Below are positions 7,068 through 39,931 of a DNA stretch of 64,000 bases, in pieces (position 1 is the stretch's first letter; each line of letters begins with the position of its first letter). Location of the stretch: the NCBI GenBank assembly GCA_905478195.1, contig CAJQHM010000014.1, positions 1-64,000 of the forward strand. The letters run 5' to 3'. Made by a program: the position numbers and the translations under genes. Origin of the DNA: an uncultured Pseudomonadales bacterium. Lineage in GTDB: Bacteria; Pseudomonadota; Gammaproteobacteria; Pseudomonadales; Pseudohongiellaceae. The notes beneath the pieces are model-generated. The model saw nothing but the letters and a program-made list of their open reading frames with translations. It searched no databases and was not told the DNA's origin.

Positions 7068-7538
7068 ATGTTCGCCACGCTGGAAACAACAGACTTAGCG
7101 ACCTGGGTCGCGGTCTCGCTCTGGGGTTATCCCATGATGCTAAGTCTGCATGTAGTGGGGCTGGCTGTAGTTGTTGGCATCTTTGCGATGCGAGATCTGA
7201 CTCTGCTGGGGCTTTTTCCGGGCGTGCAGCCATCTGCATTTCTGGGGCTAGGCAAGTTGGGCTGGGTGGGTTTCATCGTCAATGCCGTTTCCGGCTTCGC
7301 CCTGTTCGCCTCACAGGCAACGGTTTTTATTACGAGCATACCCTTCTTGGTAAAGATTGCCTGCATAGTCGCTGGCATGGTCTTGGCGGGTGTTATTCAG
7401 TCTCGTTTACGAAGTGAGGTGGAGTTAAGTGATGCCCAGGCGGCAATCAGCAGGCCCACTAAAATTATCGCATCGATTTCCCTTTTGCTTTGGCTGGCGG
7501 CAATAATTGCCGGTCGTCTGATAGCGTATATATTCTAG
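7068..7538 (+). CDS. Four-helix membrane protein, DUF6644-like (first of tandem pair)
   Basis: 156 residues with four predicted membrane helices and almost no soluble part. Helix 1 carries YPMMLSLHVVGL, giving a conserved His28 in an HxxGL motif. The next gene has the same layout, so the two appear to be a tandem duplication. The function is unknown. The buried His suggests cofactor binding, but that is inference. Only 9 bp separate it from the next gene, so the two are almost surely co-transcribed. The family name is from memory and less certain than the fold. Confidence 0.7.
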   Translation: MFATLETTDLATWVAVSLWGYPMMLSLHVVGLAVVVGIFAMRDLTLLGLFPGVQPSAFLGLGKLGWVGFIVNAVSGFALFASQATVFITSIPFLVKIACIVAGMVLAGVIQSRLRSEVELSDAQAAISRPTKIIASISLLLWLAAIIAGRLIAYIF

Positions 7539-7547
7539 AGGCCGGCC

Positions 7548-8033
7548 GTGGAAGCATTTGTAGAATCAATCGTCGGTGGATCACTCAACTCCTGGATTCA
7601 GGAGACGTACTGGTTGTGGCCTGTCATGGAGATTAGTCACTTCATTGGGCTATCCCTATTGTTCGGTGGATTACTCGTTATAGACCTGCGCATGGCGGGG
7701 CACTTTCGCAGTTTCGATCCGGCTGCTACGCATCGTCTTCTTCCCTTTGTCTTGGTTGGCTTTGGTATCAACCTGACCACGGGCATACTCTTCTTCTATG
7801 GCGACCCGATGCGTTACTCGGTGAACATAGGTTTTCAGATCAAGATGGGCCTGGTGCTATTGGCAGGGCTGAACGCCGCGTTGTACTACTGGAAAGTGAG
7901 CCCGATCATGCATGATTGGGATGCAACGACGCCTTCTCCGCCTATCGCAAAATTGGTAGCCTATACATCGCTTGCGCTGTGGGCCGGGGTTCTGCTGTGT
8001 GGGCGCCTCATCCCCTATGTAGGCACCGGCTAA
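7548..8033 (+). CDS. Four-helix membrane protein, DUF6644-like (second of tandem pair)
   Basis: 161 residues with a GTG start at 7548. Like its upstream neighbour it has four membrane helices. Helix 1 contains WPVMEISHFIGL (His31 in HxxGL), followed by a G-x-L-x-x-D-L-R-M stretch that matches GIFAMRDL in the first copy. Helices 2-3 carry a shared G-F-x-x-N-x-x-[ST]-G motif in both proteins. It ends 7 bp from the convergent cytochrome b561 gene. The function is unknown; a role as a membrane redox or transport subunit is possible. Confidence 0.7.
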   Translation: MEAFVESIVGGSLNSWIQETYWLWPVMEISHFIGLSLLFGGLLVIDLRMAGHFRSFDPAATHRLLPFVLVGFGINLTTGILFFYGDPMRYSVNIGFQIKMGLVLLAGLNAALYYWKVSPIMHDWDATTPSPPIAKLVAYTSLALWAGVLLCGRLIPYVGTG

Positions 8034-8040
8034 GCTATTG

Positions 8041-8568
8041 CTACTCGTCGTCCAGTGCATCCTCTGTGCGCGGGACAAAAATTCTGGCGACTGTCTCGTC
8101 CTCGTGAAACATTAGATGTTTCAGCGCCGCCAGTATGTGCAGTACCACGAGTACTGCGAGTGCTTTGGCGGCAAAGGAATGAAACGAAAAGGCAATCTCC
8201 GACAGGGCGCTGCGCTCTGGCATCACCCAGGCCATTAGCGGCCCAGATATCAACATGACTAGCAACAGCAGCAACATGACATAGTGTGCCGCCTTGGCCA
8301 GTTGATGTGTCATTAATGTCTGCCCGTTGACACGAGGATGGCCCGCCTTGAAGCGCCAGACTATTCGAGCGACAAGTGGCAGCCAAACGATGAGACCGAG
8401 GGTGACATGCAGGGACCTGCGGGCATCGATCTGTTCGATGGACTGTAAGGCGATGCTCTGACCTATGAACCACATCAGAATGATCGCTACTGTGGCGAAC
8501 CAATGCAGGCCTATCGAGAGCCAACCGAAGGAGTTATTTCTGTCGTGAAGAGAGCGGGGCTTGCTCAT
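8041..8568 (-). CDS. Cytochrome b561 family membrane protein
   Basis: 175 residues with four membrane helices. Histidines lie where b561 proteins bind two b haems: His22 (helix 1), His54 (helix 2), His95 (helix 3) and His144 (helix 4). Bacterial b561 proteins move electrons between the quinone pool and periplasmic acceptors. It lies downstream of, and on the same strand as, the DUF6152 and PDLxGxW genes, 76 bp from the latter. It may therefore serve as the redox partner of those exported proteins (inference). Confidence 0.88.
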   Translation of the reverse strand: MSKPRSLHDRNNSFGWLSIGLHWFATVAIILMWFIGQSIALQSIEQIDARRSLHVTLGLIVWLPLVARIVWRFKAGHPRVNGQTLMTHQLAKAAHYVMLLLLLVMLISGPLMAWVMPERSALSEIAFSFHSFAAKALAVLVVLHILAALKHLMFHEDETVARIFVPRTEDALDDE

Positions 8569-8644: not shown

Positions 8645-9376
8645 TTAATACTTCGATGGAAAGAAACGCACGGAAGCGCGTGACGATTCGGGATCGCAAT
8701 CATAGGCTTGGAGTTTGTAGCCTTGCGCCGCGGGTATCCAGCGAGTGGTGTAAGAGGTAGGCTCCAGCAGAAACATAGGATCTTCAACTTCTAGCGTTAT
8801 CCGCAGATCTTCACCATCCATCCAATAACGCTCGCGCACAATCTTTTGCGAAGAGGAGGGAATGCCGTTGTAGTCATCGAAGCCGGCAACATCGAACACG
8901 AAGTGCGTGGTAGTAACGATAAGCGCGTCGTCTTCATAGTGACCTACTGAAAAGCCTTGAACACCGAAGTCCGTCGACTTGGGGGTGCGGCCGTCCAGCC
9001 AGACGGTGCGCAGTTGATCATCCTTCTCATAGCGGAACAATACTCGGTCAGGCCATTGCACGACTTCCATGTGATAGGGGTCGTACTGGATAGCCGGCGA
9101 AGAGGCGGGCTGGCAGTCATACTTTGGTGCAATAATTTCTTCCCAGACTTCTTGATAGGCTAGGGCGCGTGCGTTCAGCTTGGGGAAATTCTCTTCACCC
9201 CAGGGCACAGTTTCGCCATTAACTGGTCGGGCGCCAAAGCCGCCGTTCCAGACTCCTGCCAGGTCTGGAATATCGTTGTCAGCTTGCGCATTTAACTGGC
9301 TAGCAGTCGTACCAATCGCAAGAGAAAGCAAGACTGCAATAACAGACTTCTCACTCATAAATTTAATTGCTCTCAT
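8645..9376 (-). CDS. Exported PDLxGxW-family protein of unknown function (copy 1)
   Basis: 243 residues with a signal peptide (about 1-31, cleavage near LNA-Q). The mature N-terminus has IPDLAGVWNG. Further on it shows GHYEDDALIVTTT, VRERYW and a VEDPMF motif. The same succession (PD[LF]xGxW, G/H-x-W/Y-D/E-x-D-x-x-x-V, V-x-E-R-[YF], DPxxF) appears in the proteins at 29175 and 38942, so the window holds three paralogues. Such proteins are widespread as secreted hypotheticals; I know no proven activity. The gene lies between a DUF6152 gene (108 bp upstream) and cytochrome b561. Confidence 0.75.
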   Translation of the reverse strand: MRAIKFMSEKSVIAVLLSLAIGTTASQLNAQADNDIPDLAGVWNGGFGARPVNGETVPWGEENFPKLNARALAYQEVWEEIIAPKYDCQPASSPAIQYDPYHMEVVQWPDRVLFRYEKDDQLRTVWLDGRTPKSTDFGVQGFSVGHYEDDALIVTTTHFVFDVAGFDDYNGIPSSSQKIVRERYWMDGEDLRITLEVEDPMFLLEPTSYTTRWIPAAQGYKLQAYDCDPESSRASVRFFPSKY

Positions 9377-9484: not shown

Positions 9485-9910
9485 CTACTCAGGAGGCTGT
9501 GTGCGTTCCTGGACGCGACCGCCCTCCAAAACCGGGCTGCCGTCGGCACGGGTCATGCGCACACAACACAGGCCGGTAGAGCCTTCTGCGCGTGAGGGTC
9601 TGCCCGAGGCTTTCACGATCATGCCCAGCGGCAGTGAGTCTGGAGTCCAGCCGGTGCGACGCAGGCTAACAGGGGCGCCCAATTCTATCTGCCATTCGAC
9701 CGTTGCGCCGTTATCGCCGGCCACATCCAGGTAGAGGAATGCGTGTGGGTTTCTGAAAACGAAGCGTGTAACTGTGCCCTCTATTTCGACGCGCTGATCC
9801 GGGTCGTAGAAGGGTGTGCTCGAGTGATGAGCGAGAACGGGTATAACTACGAATGCAGCTCCCAAGGTAAGCGCCGAGGCCGCTGCTGTTATCCAACGTT
9901 TAATGCTCAT
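9485..9910 (-). CDS. DUF6152 family exported protein (copy 1)
   Basis: 141 residues. The signal peptide ends V-L-A before His-His (residues about 28-29), so the mature protein should begin HHSS. A small beta-rich domain follows, with EGTVTRFVFRNPH (a conserved NPH), a W-Q-I-E-L-G strand, LRRTGW, and a final Arg-Ala-Asp-Gly-Ser turn. The second copy at 30253 shares the HH start, NPH and LRR-G positions. The function is unknown. It is first in a minus-strand run with a PDLxGxW gene and cytochrome b561. Confidence 0.8.
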   Translation of the reverse strand: MSIKRWITAAASALTLGAAFVVIPVLAHHSSTPFYDPDQRVEIEGTVTRFVFRNPHAFLYLDVAGDNGATVEWQIELGAPVSLRRTGWTPDSLPLGMIVKASGRPSRAEGSTGLCCVRMTRADGSPVLEGGRVQERTQPPE

Positions 9911-29096: not shown

Positions 29097-29126
29097 TTGA
29101 CACACCCCAACCCAAGTGGTTATATC
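29097..29126 (+). promoter_or_regulatory. Probable sigma-70 promoter for PDLxGxW/DUF6152 module 2
   Basis: A perfect -35 TTGACA (29097-29102) is followed after 18 bases by TATATC (29121-29126). It lies about 50 bp upstream of the ATG at 29175. A longer reading frame beginning at 29097 would start inside the -35 box, which supports the 29175 start. Confidence 0.7.
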
Positions 29127-29174
29127 GTGGCTCCTTTGGGAGAGAAATTACAATTAAAGCAAAAAGGTAGAATT

Positions 29175-30065
29175 ATGAAGATTCAATGGCTGCTCCTAGC
29201 AATCGCAGTGCTTGTAGTAGGTTGCTCACCTGCTGATACAGGCAACACTCAAACACCACAAGTCGCTATGGCCACAGAAGCCCCGGCTGACGATATTCCA
29301 CGCACGCCAAACGGCAAGCCCGATTTCAATGGAATCTGGCAGGTGTTAATGAATGCTAATGATAATCTTGAGCCAGCACCGCCAAAGGCTGCCTATCAGC
29401 TAGTCCCGGGTGATTTCGTGCCGGTTCCAGCTCCTAGCATCGTTGCCATGGGCGCGGTGGGCGCAGTTCCGGCTAGCTTCGGCGTAGTAGAAGGCGGCAG
29501 AATACCCTACAAGCCTGAAGCAATAGCTCGACGTGATGAGAATGCGTTAAACTGGCAGTCGATGGATCCGGAAGTTAAGTGCTACATGCCAGGTGTTCCT
29601 CGAGCCACCTATATGCCGCACCCATTCCAGATATTTCAAAGTGAGAGCGCTTTCTTTATCGCTTACTCCTTTGCTGGCGCGGTACGTAACGTATTCCTTG
29701 AAGATCCTGGCCCAGCGCCACTGGATTCATGGATGGGTCAGTCCTTTGGATACTGGGACGGTGATACCTGGGTAGTCGAAGTGTCAGGTCTTGATGACCG
29801 CACCTGGTTCGACAGAGCGGGTAACTACCATACCTACCAGCTGAAGGTTACAGAGCGGTACACACTGGTCAGCGAGAACGTCATAGAGTACACAGCTACA
29901 ATGGAAGATCCTGATATCTTCGAAGAGGCGTGGACTATCAAGATGCCTATCTACCGTCGTCTGGAAGAAGGCTACGAGCTGCCACAATTTAAGTGTGTAG
30001 AATTCGTAGAAGAGATGATGTACGGCCGATATCGTAAGGGTAGAGAGGCTGAATTAGGCTTCTAA
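29175..30065 (+). CDS. Lipoprotein of the PDLxGxW family (copy 2)
   Basis: 296 residues from the ATG at 29175. The lipobox LVVGC (Cys16) makes it a lipoprotein. The mature part starts IPRTPNGKPDFNGIW, then shows GYWDGDTWVVEVSGLDDRTWFD, VTERYT and MEDPDIF, the same order as the proteins at 8645 and 38942. The function is unknown. The spacing of conserved Trp/Asp residues suggests one beta-rich domain. It is followed after 187 bp by a DUF6152 gene, the reverse gene order of the 8.6-9.9 kb module. Confidence 0.78.
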   Translation: MKIQWLLLAIAVLVVGCSPADTGNTQTPQVAMATEAPADDIPRTPNGKPDFNGIWQVLMNANDNLEPAPPKAAYQLVPGDFVPVPAPSIVAMGAVGAVPASFGVVEGGRIPYKPEAIARRDENALNWQSMDPEVKCYMPGVPRATYMPHPFQIFQSESAFFIAYSFAGAVRNVFLEDPGPAPLDSWMGQSFGYWDGDTWVVEVSGLDDRTWFDRAGNYHTYQLKVTERYTLVSENVIEYTATMEDPDIFEEAWTIKMPIYRRLEEGYELPQFKCVEFVEEMMYGRYRKGREAELGF

Positions 30066-30252: not shown

Positions 30253-30711
30253 ATGAAGATTAAATTACTAGCACTAGCAGTCGTTACTGCAATCGGTGTT
30301 GTTGCGATCAACCAGCCTGCTGCGGTTGCTCACCACGCCTTCTCGGCTGAATTTGATGCGAACTTACCAGTTCGCTTGGGCGGACCAATTACTCGCGTCG
30401 AGTGGATTAACCCGCACACTTGGATTCACTTAGAAAACAACGACCCTGAGGCGACTCGTGATCCGGGCCCTTGGATGGTAGAGGGCGGTACGCCAAATAC
30501 GCTTCTGCGTCGGGGCATTAACCGTAACTCGCTGACTCTTGGTCAAGACATCGTCGTAACAGGCTACCAGTCTAAAGACAGACTGTGTGAGCCAACTTGT
30601 CGTGCTAATGGCCGTGACATCACATTCCCTGATGGCCGTAAGTTGTTCATGGGTTCATCCGGTACTGGTGCGCCACGTGACGGGTCCGATCAGACTGAGC
30701 CAGGCCAATAG
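30253..30711 (+). CDS. DUF6152 family exported protein (copy 2)
   Basis: 152 residues. The signal peptide ends AAVA before His27-His28, so the mature protein should begin HHAFSAEFD. It then has ITRVEWINPHTWIHLE (conserved NPH), WMVEGGTPNTLLRRG and DITFPDGRKLF. Cys residues in LCEPTC could form a disulfide. The gene follows a PDLxGxW lipoprotein gene and ends at a strong terminator. The function is unknown. The predicted N-terminal His and the NPH His could form a metal site (inference). Confidence 0.82.
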   Translation: MKIKLLALAVVTAIGVVAINQPAAVAHHAFSAEFDANLPVRLGGPITRVEWINPHTWIHLENNDPEATRDPGPWMVEGGTPNTLLRRGINRNSLTLGQDIVVTGYQSKDRLCEPTCRANGRDITFPDGRKLFMGSSGTGAPRDGSDQTEPGQ

Positions 30712-31504: not shown

Positions 31505-32221
31505 CTAGAAAGGCGGCTGCAATAGGAAAGCACTGAACTGATATCCAGCGAGTAGGAACCCGCCGGTCATAAGAGCAGTGTTGGTAATAAATGAATGTCG
31601 CAGGTAGCTAGAGCGGGTTCTCCAGACACTCAGAATAAGAAATACTGCGGATAGCGCCAGAATCTGCCCGATCTCAACGCCGACATTGAAGCTTATGATG
31701 TTTATAACCAAGCCATTTTCTGAAAGGTCGAATTCCTGCAACTTGGTTGCAAGCCCCAGTCCATGAAAAAGCCCAAAGATGAAGACTGCAATCTTGATAT
31801 TCGGTTCGAAGCCCAGCAGGCGCTTGAAGCCGTCTATATTCTCGAAGGCTTTATACACAATCGACAGTCCGATGATCGCATCGATGAAATAGGCATTAAC
31901 TTGCAGGTTTGCCAACACGCCGAGTAGCAGGGTGATACTGTGGCCTATAGCGAACAAGGTGACGTACTGAACAACGTGCTTTGGGCGATACAGGAAGAAG
32001 ATGACGCCTAGTAGGAATAGCAGATGATCATAACCGGTCACCATATGCTTGGCGCCAAGGTAGATGAAGGGCCCAATTGCGGGGCCATCGATCGCCTCTA
32101 CAAAACTCGCATCGCCACCTTCGATAGTATGGCCGAAAGCATTCAGCGAAAAAAGCGAGAGCGCGAGCAGTAGTAGCTTGGGGAAAAGCACTGTTCGCAG
32201 CATCGGGATATTCATAAACAA
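31505..32221 (-). CDS. HupE/UreJ-family membrane protein
   Basis: 238 residues. A signal-like N-terminus ends near NAFGH, then a short periplasmic segment and six membrane helices. The family hallmark HMVTGYDHLLFLLGVIFFL (about 58-76) is followed by HSITL and FGLFHGLGLA. HupE/UreJ proteins are linked to nickel or other metal uptake for hydrogenase and urease. Neither enzyme is in this window, so the substrate is open. It is immediately adjacent to the cytochrome-like gene upstream. Confidence 0.85.
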   Translation of the reverse strand: MFMNIPMLRTVLFPKLLLLALSLFSLNAFGHTIEGGDASFVEAIDGPAIGPFIYLGAKHMVTGYDHLLFLLGVIFFLYRPKHVVQYVTLFAIGHSITLLLGVLANLQVNAYFIDAIIGLSIVYKAFENIDGFKRLLGFEPNIKIAVFIFGLFHGLGLATKLQEFDLSENGLVINIISFNVGVEIGQILALSAVFLILSVWRTRSSYLRHSFITNTALMTGGFLLAGYQFSAFLLQPPF

Positions 32222-38941: not shown

Positions 38942-39931
38942 ATGATTACGCTCAAGAAACTCATACCGCTGGCTGCCATTTTGCTAAGTGGTTCGGCGCT
39001 GGCTGCAGACAATTATGAGCCGCCCAGAACCGCCTCGGGTAAACCAGACCTGCAAGGGTTTTGGACTAACGCCTCGATTACCACTATGCAACGTTCCAGC
39101 AACTATGCAGAAATCGGTCTTACTATCCCTCTGGAGCAGCTTCGCGAGCTTACAGCAAATAACCACCAGAACGTCCGTCAGGCGACCGACGACAATCAGG
39201 TGCAGGGTGAGCTGCCATCGGGAAAAGACCTAGGCCAGGGTCGCGGCTACAATGCTTTCTGGGTTGACCCGGGTTCAGCCTTCGGCTATGTCAAAGGCGA
39301 GTACCGCACTTCCTGGATTACCTATCCGGAGAACGGGCGCATACCTTATTCAGAGCAGGGCAGTAAACTGCGCCAGGAAAACCGTGCAAAATTTTCGGGC
39401 AACGATGGCCCTGAGGGCCGGGCTCTTGGTGAGCGTTGCATAATCGGATTCGGTAGCACCGGTGGGCCGCCGATGAATAATGTTCTCTACAACAATATGT
39501 ACCAGATCGTGCAGACGGAAGACTATGTCATGATCATGGTAGAGATGGCGCATGACGCTCGCATCATACCAATCGATAAGGGGCATCGCCCTGATGCCTG
39601 GAAGCCATGGCTAGGTGATTCTGTCGCCCATTGGGATGGTGACGTACTGGTGGTTGAGACTAGTAACTTGCATCCACAGCAAGCGCCTCGAAATATCGCG
39701 GCTCTATCGGATGAGGGGAAGGTTGTAGAGCGCTTTAGCCGTTACTCCGACGATCAGATTCTCTATGAGTTTGAGGTTACCGACCCTGTTTTCTACACCG
39801 AGGCCTGGAGTGGAGAGATGGCGTTCAATGCAACGGATACCCAGCCCTATGAATATGCCTGTCACGAGGGCAACTACGGACTGCCTGGCATTCTCGCCGG
39901 TGCGCGCCGATTGGAGATGGAAGAGCAGTAG
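38942..39931 (+). CDS. Exported PDLxGxW-family protein (copy 3)
   Basis: 329 residues. The signal peptide ends SALAA (about residue 21). The mature N-terminus is NYEPPRTASGKPDLQGFWTNASI. Later come AHWDGDVLVVETSNLH, VERFSRY and VTDPVFYTEAW, shared with the proteins at 8645 and 29175. Unlike those, there is no DUF6152 gene beside it, and it carries an extra Gly-rich central segment with GERCIIGFGSTGGPPM. Function unknown. A GGAG ribosome site precedes the ATG and a terminator follows. Confidence 0.78.
   Translation: MITLKKLIPLAAILLSGSALAADNYEPPRTASGKPDLQGFWTNASITTMQRSSNYAEIGLTIPLEQLRELTANNHQNVRQATDDNQVQGELPSGKDLGQGRGYNAFWVDPGSAFGYVKGEYRTSWITYPENGRIPYSEQGSKLRQENRAKFSGNDGPEGRALGERCIIGFGSTGGPPMNNVLYNNMYQIVQTEDYVMIMVEMAHDARIIPIDKGHRPDAWKPWLGDSVAHWDGDVLVVETSNLHPQQAPRNIAALSDEGKVVERFSRYSDDQILYEFEVTDPVFYTEAWSGEMAFNATDTQPYEYACHEGNYGLPGILAGARRLEMEEQ

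Follow-up and report, generated by a model that had tools for sequence, protein, structure and literature searches.

Two DUF6152 Proteins and Their Neighbouring Genes

The stretch of DNA analysed here (the window) comprises positions 1 to 64,000 of contig CAJQHM010000014.1, assembly GCA_905478195.1, from an uncultured Pseudomonadales bacterium of the Pseudohongiellaceae. It encodes two proteins of the family DUF6152 (Pfam PF19649), named protein a and protein b, which score 82.8 and 94.2 bits against a curated cut-off of 27 bits. Both genes lie beside a gene for a secreted protein that we call GVW, and the gene for protein a (locus A) is also close to two genes for four-helix membrane proteins of the DUF6644 type (Table 1). 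A predicted signal peptide directly precedes two histidines, and an Asn-Pro-His stretch follows in the mature domain (VVIPVLA/HHSSTPFYD...RNPH in protein a and NQPAAVA/HHAFSAEFD...INPH in protein b; the slash marks the predicted cleavage). A third copy on another contig of the same genome (C107:3000) reads LSA/HH...QNPH. The observation of an earlier note on this DNA, that VLA or AVA stands directly before His-His (HH) in the two window proteins, is thus confirmed, cleavage at this position being a prediction by the (−3,−1) rule.

Table 1. Features of the two DUF6152 loci in the window.
Feature	Position	Strand	Basis
DUF6644-like four-helix membrane protein, first of tandem	7068..7538	+	weak PF20349 match alone; hidden Markov model (HMM), 24/26 relatives
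DUF6644-like four-helix membrane protein, second of tandem	7548..8033	+	HMM, relatives; pair kept 8/8
Cytochrome b561 between the pairs	8041..8568	-	PF01292, E 3.3e-19
GVW partner a, secreted, calycin-like barrel	8645..9376	-	108 bp downstream of DUF6152 a, same strand
DUF6152 protein a, 141 amino acids (aa), signal peptide and predicted OB-fold domain	9485..9910	-	open reading frame (ORF); PF19649, E 1.9e-23; AlphaFold2
Protein a, N27-P28-H29 loop (L12)	9743..9751	-	PH in 220/220 aligned members
Mature protein a, His1-His2 codons	9824..9829	-	invariant in 66/66 sampled members
Signal peptide a, 27 aa, end V-L-A, predicted	9830..9910	-	(−3,−1) rule; family h-region profile
GVW partner b	29097..30065	+	beside DUF6152 b; order kept in 7/7 same-genus relatives
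DUF6152 protein b, 152 aa	30253..30711	+	ORF; PF19649, E 5.2e-27
Signal peptide b, 26 aa, end A-V-A, predicted	30253..30330	+	(−3,−1) rule
Mature protein b, His1-His2 codons	30331..30336	+	family invariance
Protein b, N27-P28-H29	30409..30417	+	sequence
HupE/UreJ_2 permease	31505-32221	-	0.8 kb from DUF6152 b; position kept in 7/7 same-genus relatives

Conservation of the Histidines and the Predicted Cleavage Site

We collected 66 distinct DUF6152 members from genomes with the Pfam profile. HH and a later Pro-His (PH) occur at the same spacing in all of them, and the residue before HH (position −1) is Ala in 60, Ser in 4 and Gly in 2. The wider set gave HH in 178 of 178 distinct mature sequences (position −1: Ala 161, Val 9, Ser 6, Gly 2); this set is biased because HH was required at extraction, yet only one of 185 matches lacked HH, and that one was truncated by the end of its locus. 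The PH pair, at about residues 28-29 of the mature protein, is invariant in 220 of 220 aligned members. It is preceded by Asn in 211 of the 220 and by Pro, Gly or His in the others, and therefore only PH, and not NPH as a whole, counts as conserved. The conservation of HH and PH is far above chance. Of what the earlier note had expected of the family, a conserved first histidine and a further conserved histidine beyond HH were borne out, while NPH held only in its last two residues.

Cleavage directly before HH satisfies the (−3,−1) rule in 94% of 177 homologues (85% in the strict form A/V/S/T-x-A), whereas at ten upstream offsets the rule was passed by at most 61%. The hydrophobicity of the leader climbs between −18 and −6 and drops at −4, the course expected of a signal peptide, and the signal peptides are divergent, unlike the invariant HH that follows them. 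His is thus predicted at mature position 1, the position that it takes in a histidine brace. A home-made signal-peptide matrix, built on 28 E. coli signal peptides, placed HH at the top in only 93 of the 177 homologues and in neither window protein; it was discarded for the plain rule because some of the sites that it chose had His or Pro at −1.

The members with Val at −1 (loci L066, L067, L068, L069, L070, L073, L080, L099 and L102) belong to an HHSG/HHSY clade that is often second in a tandem DUF6152 pair, and they may be processed differently. If they were cut after the preceding Ala, their mature end would be Y/W/F-V-H-H, which resembles the N-terminal Cu/Ni (ATCUN) motif.

Predicted OB-Fold and Residue Couplings

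Mature protein a was modelled with AlphaFold2 together with 75 relatives. The model is an oligonucleotide/oligosaccharide-binding (OB) fold barrel, unlike CopC or the lytic polysaccharide monooxygenases (LPMOs), with a mean predicted local distance difference test (pLDDT) of 87. DSSP assigned strands to residues 14-24, 31-37, 43-49, 71-79 and 86-94 and a helix to 53-58, so that in the model the order is b1-b2-b3-(alpha)-b4-b5, that of a five-stranded OB-fold. The best VIA-align matches were PriB (Z 9.9, root-mean-square deviation 2.8, 82 residues) and SSB (Z 9.7), and Foldseek returned OB-fold proteins too. Folds of CopC or LPMOs were not among the VIA-align comparison rows, which by itself excludes neither; a CopC or LPMO Pfam match was found for neither window protein up to E 1. 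The DUF6152 profile gave nothing convincing in a sequence search against PDB chains (best E 0.077), and no relative was found in a search of viral contigs. In two members, at L031 and L032, the match is confined to the first half of the profile and an insertion apparently follows strand b2; there DUF6644 lies upstream of DUF6152 and not downstream.

Mean-field couplings from 221 DUF6152 sequences (effective number 106) recovered the pairings b1-b2, b2-b3, b1-b4 and b4-b5. Tail residues 4-10 coupled to residues 23-27, 31, 49-50, 78-81 and 86-88, the strongest partners being 49, 31, 50, 78, 81, 88, 86 and 26. They map to where b3 and b4 end, to where b2 and b5 begin and to loop L12, all at the same end of the barrel as the PH loop. 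The couplings were partly retained when the HHG subfamily was left out and recurred in 9-22 of 30 subsamples. We left out the equal scores between H1/H2 and P28/H29, which arise artificially from invariant columns. The data suggest that the N-terminal tail sits over the barrel end with the PH loop; they favour rather than oppose closeness of tail and loop, and they are only suggestive, given the few sequences and the confounding influence of phylogeny on coupling scores.

GVW and DUF6644 as Partners of DUF6152

In 80 DUF6152 loci, taken with up to 8 kb of flanking sequence, a gene of the secreted GVW family (PDLSGVW-type motif) was present at 75, mostly directly adjacent. The genome studied here (2.97 Mb) holds 32 GVW copies, and one stands beside each of its three DUF6152 genes; by our own arithmetic, the chance of such a neighbour is about 2% per DUF6152 gene. 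Two cysteines and G-x-W are invariant in the family. No Pfam family was matched and a PDB sequence search gave nothing convincing, so that by sequence comparison GVW is a large unnamed secreted family without a relative in Pfam or PDB. Foldseek with the AlphaFold2 model indicated a weak likeness to calycin barrels that bind fatty acids (FABP) or retinol (E 3.6e-4, template modelling scores of about 0.4/0.6). The window has a further copy at 38942-39928 besides the two listed in Table 1, and the true start of GVW b is probably the ATG at 29175, which would give a lipoprotein-like signal (LVVGC). An antisense artefact had been suspected behind the orientation of GVW in gammaproteobacterial loci and was ruled out, L067 having real genes with signal peptides. 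In the set GVW-DUF6152-DUF6152-GVW, the DUF6152 pair is inverted relative to the GVW genes between clades, as seen on comparing gammaproteobacterial and acidobacterial loci (L067, L081, L099) with those of Sphingomonadales (L033-L062).

DUF6644 adjoins DUF6152 in 20 of 20 loci of the HHGW subfamily, where a GVW neighbour was not found. The DUF6152-DUF6644 pair is also present in annotated records of Caballeronia and Azospirillum plasmids, and a DUF6644 tandem pair, like that at 7068-8033 of the window, lies within the flanks of 14 of 80 GVW-type loci. Residues H31, K100, W141, G148 and R149 are invariant. Among 26 family members, 24 matched DUF6644 in Pfam, 13 matched DUF2214 weakly and one matched UPF0093 weakly; a sequence search against PDB chains gave nothing convincing. 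In profile comparisons, hhalign assigned DUF6644 a probability of 60-66% with DUF2214 and with a combined CopD/HemJ set. The value was 33% with a HemJ-like set, 6.5% when CopD was used by itself, and below 1% with the reversed or b561 controls. DUF6644 was rejected as a plain CopD on account of the 6.5% and of its lack of a CopD match in Pfam. On these figures a distant relation to CopD and HemJ is no more than plausible. HemJ has His and Lys around haem b.

DUF6152 and GVW occur as one protein at locus L011/L132 and in several genomes of the same genus (fusions L011, L185, L254, L255). In two genomes of another family, DUF6152, GVW and DUF6644 form a single chain of about 570-600 residues, with another DUF6644 gene behind it. 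A His/Asp-rich linker, HHDDDHAEFH, is present in one of these two genomes. In the triple fusion at L252:4215-6005, the linker NEDHHDDDHAEFHDTHEDE lies between DUF6152 and GVW and is a possible second metal-binding stretch. Locus A, with DUF6152, GVW and two DUF6644 genes, is the split form of the triple-fusion set. All of the eight relatives retain its four-gene module, and in five of them we did not find most of the other genes that flank it in the window. The conservation of locus A and the fusions are the strongest evidence that DUF6152, GVW and DUF6644 constitute one system, and operon partners and fusions are more informative on function than the HH motif.

As for further neighbours, the cytochrome b561 gene was not found at locus A in four of the eight relatives. 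In Sphingomonadales, a cytochrome-b561-like protein of about 435 aa (family assigned by eye) is encoded near DUF6152 at L050:11762-13066 and at 10 other loci. The signal peptide of the HupE/UreJ_2 permease at 31505-32221 apparently ends right before a His (NAFG/HTIEGGD) that is kept in seven of seven relatives; the protein has a short tail only, without a domain of the size of Ang domains ('anglerases', see below).

Proposed Function and Alternative Explanations

DUF6152, a widespread bacterial family, is predicted to be exported with HH at its N-terminus, has a third conserved histidine and is linked or fused to a four-helix membrane protein; it is therefore probably a metal-grabbing domain. 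We lean towards the view that it is a periplasmic OB-fold domain for metal capture and handling that uses HH and the histidine of the PH loop and works with GVW and DUF6644. Signal peptidase would expose His1-His2, which together with the invariant histidine of loop L12 would bind a transition metal, plausibly as a histidine brace. The domain would capture or handle periplasmic metal together with the secreted calycin-like GVW protein, and DUF6644, with its invariant His and Lys and its plausible distant likeness to DUF2214/HemJ/CopD, would be the membrane partner. The closest analogy may be the transfer of Cu(II) from CopC or DUF1775 to CopD, or the N-terminal-His anglerase domains on HupE/UreJ permeases. 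The motif, its conservation, the OB-fold prediction, the gene linkage and the fusions come from computation; metal binding itself, the identity of the metal, what GVW does and which way metal or electrons flow are our inference. Several observations weigh against this explanation: Val at −1 (PAYV/HH, PAWV/HH), present in nine of 177 members, makes a poor cleavage site; residues 1-10 of the protein a model are less certain (mean pLDDT 73); PF05425 (CopD) matched none of the 26 DUF6644-family members up to E 10; the profile-profile similarity of DUF6644 is modest and changes with the choice of alignment; and at neither DUF6152 locus of the window did we recognise a regulator or exporter known for copper.

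By analogy, copper would be our first guess for the metal and nickel a close second; copper is only one candidate because nickel- and copper-binding N-terminal-His families have both been described (PMC12537917). That the metal at the N-terminal histidines is nickel, zinc or cobalt instead, a reading that overlaps with ours, has an appreciable chance, if short of even. DUF4198 and DUF6702 prefer Ni (PMC12537917), and the HupE/UreJ_2 permease gene keeps its place beside DUF6152 b, but this synteny is confined to one genus, so that descent alone may explain it. Siderophore ATP-binding cassette (ABC) genes near DUF6152 in Azospirillum speak for metal uptake without telling which metal, and are a single case. 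HH and PH might also be structural or bind an organic ligand, the domain then being a lid or adaptor of the GVW barrel. OB-folds often bind polymers and GVW is directly fused to DUF6152 in several genomes; an ordinary structural reason is lacking, however, for an invariant exposed N-terminal His-His, and the HHGW subfamily retains HH and PH without a GVW neighbour, which leaves a role without metal quite unlikely. Cleavage at another place is very improbable. At offset +5 (HHSFA/M) a second site is compatible with the rule in 95% of members, and this site, the Val members and the failure of our crude matrix to put HH first in either window protein are what speaks for it. However, cleavage at +5 would place the invariant HH inside a disposable signal peptide, which would be very unusual for an absolutely conserved motif; protein a, with Thr at −1 of the +5 site, does not pass the rule there, and the matrix also picked impossible sites. 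No clearly better predicted site than HH was found, nor poor conservation of His1, two outcomes that would have spoken against the reading of the earlier note.

A redox role has to be considered in view of the His/Lys pair of DUF6644, of a cytochrome b561 gene close by and of a partner that resembles calycins. DUF6644 would then hold haem through its invariant H31 and K100, in the manner of the His and Lys of HemJ, within a periplasmic electron-transfer or oxidase chain, which we regard as unlikely. In such a chain DUF6152 would carry a copper site, GVW would take a hydrophobic ligand or substrate, and DUF6644 and cytochrome b561 would donate electrons. The cytochrome b561 gene of locus A, the likeness of GVW to retinol- and fatty-acid-binding barrels and the catabolic-looking genes near DUF6152 in many loci are consistent with such a module; on the other hand, cytochrome b561 is inconstant among the relatives, and characterised N-terminal-His proteins of this general kind have no or weak oxidase activity (PMC12537917). 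A further form of it, a new type of periplasmic three-part system with copper that would serve as oxidase or oxygenase for lipophilic compounds, with an OB-fold histidine brace, a substrate-holding calycin-like barrel and a haem-binding, electron-feeding four-helix membrane protein, appears improbable. We prefer metal capture and hand-over to a redox role.

If the proposed function is correct, DUF6152, DUF6644 and GVW become one testable metal system across Pseudomonadota and Acidobacteriota, for which the single-chain triple fusions offer one gene for a direct test, and the N-terminal-histidine metal site gains the OB-fold as a new scaffold, probably one not previously known for such a site. 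DUF6152 and DUF6644 were absent from the searched full-text literature, and no paper there combined a histidine brace with an OB-fold, many subscription papers and preprints being outside that scope. The main text of a 2025 study of N-terminal-His families does not contain PF19649, and the families named there do not include DUF6152.

Comparison with Known Systems

The arrangement resembles that of CopC or DUF1775 (YcnI) with CopD (YcnJ), where an exported N-terminal-His domain has a helical membrane protein as its partner, either from a neighbouring gene or within one chain. It differs in the predicted OB-fold of DUF6152 versus the CopC fold, in DUF6644 versus CopD, and in the additional calycin-like GVW module. 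The anglerases Ang-1 and Ang-2 on HupE/UreJ_2 likewise place a domain with invariant His1 on a membrane protein, and metal capture has been proposed for them (PMC12537917). Ang-1, however, is an immunoglobulin-like beta-sandwich with a mono-histidine site (PMC12537917), while DUF6152 has a predicted OB-fold with His-His and the PH-loop histidine, and its fusion partner is DUF6644, not HupE/UreJ_2. DUF4198 and DUF6702 are secreted as well and combine an N-terminal His with further conserved histidines (His18; His28/His32), but have beta-sandwich folds and a His1 conserved to only 79% and 65%, respectively, versus 66 of 66 in DUF6152 (PMC12537917).

LPMOs, the histidine-brace copper monooxygenases, have a signal peptide right before His1, as predicted for DUF6152, and share with it a second conserved His; they differ in that the window proteins have no Pfam LPMO match. 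CusF and SilF resemble the predicted DUF6152 domain in fold and location, both being small periplasmic OB-fold metal chaperones. CusF binds Cu(I) via internal His, Met and Trp and not via an N-terminal His, which sets it apart from the site proposed here for DUF6152.
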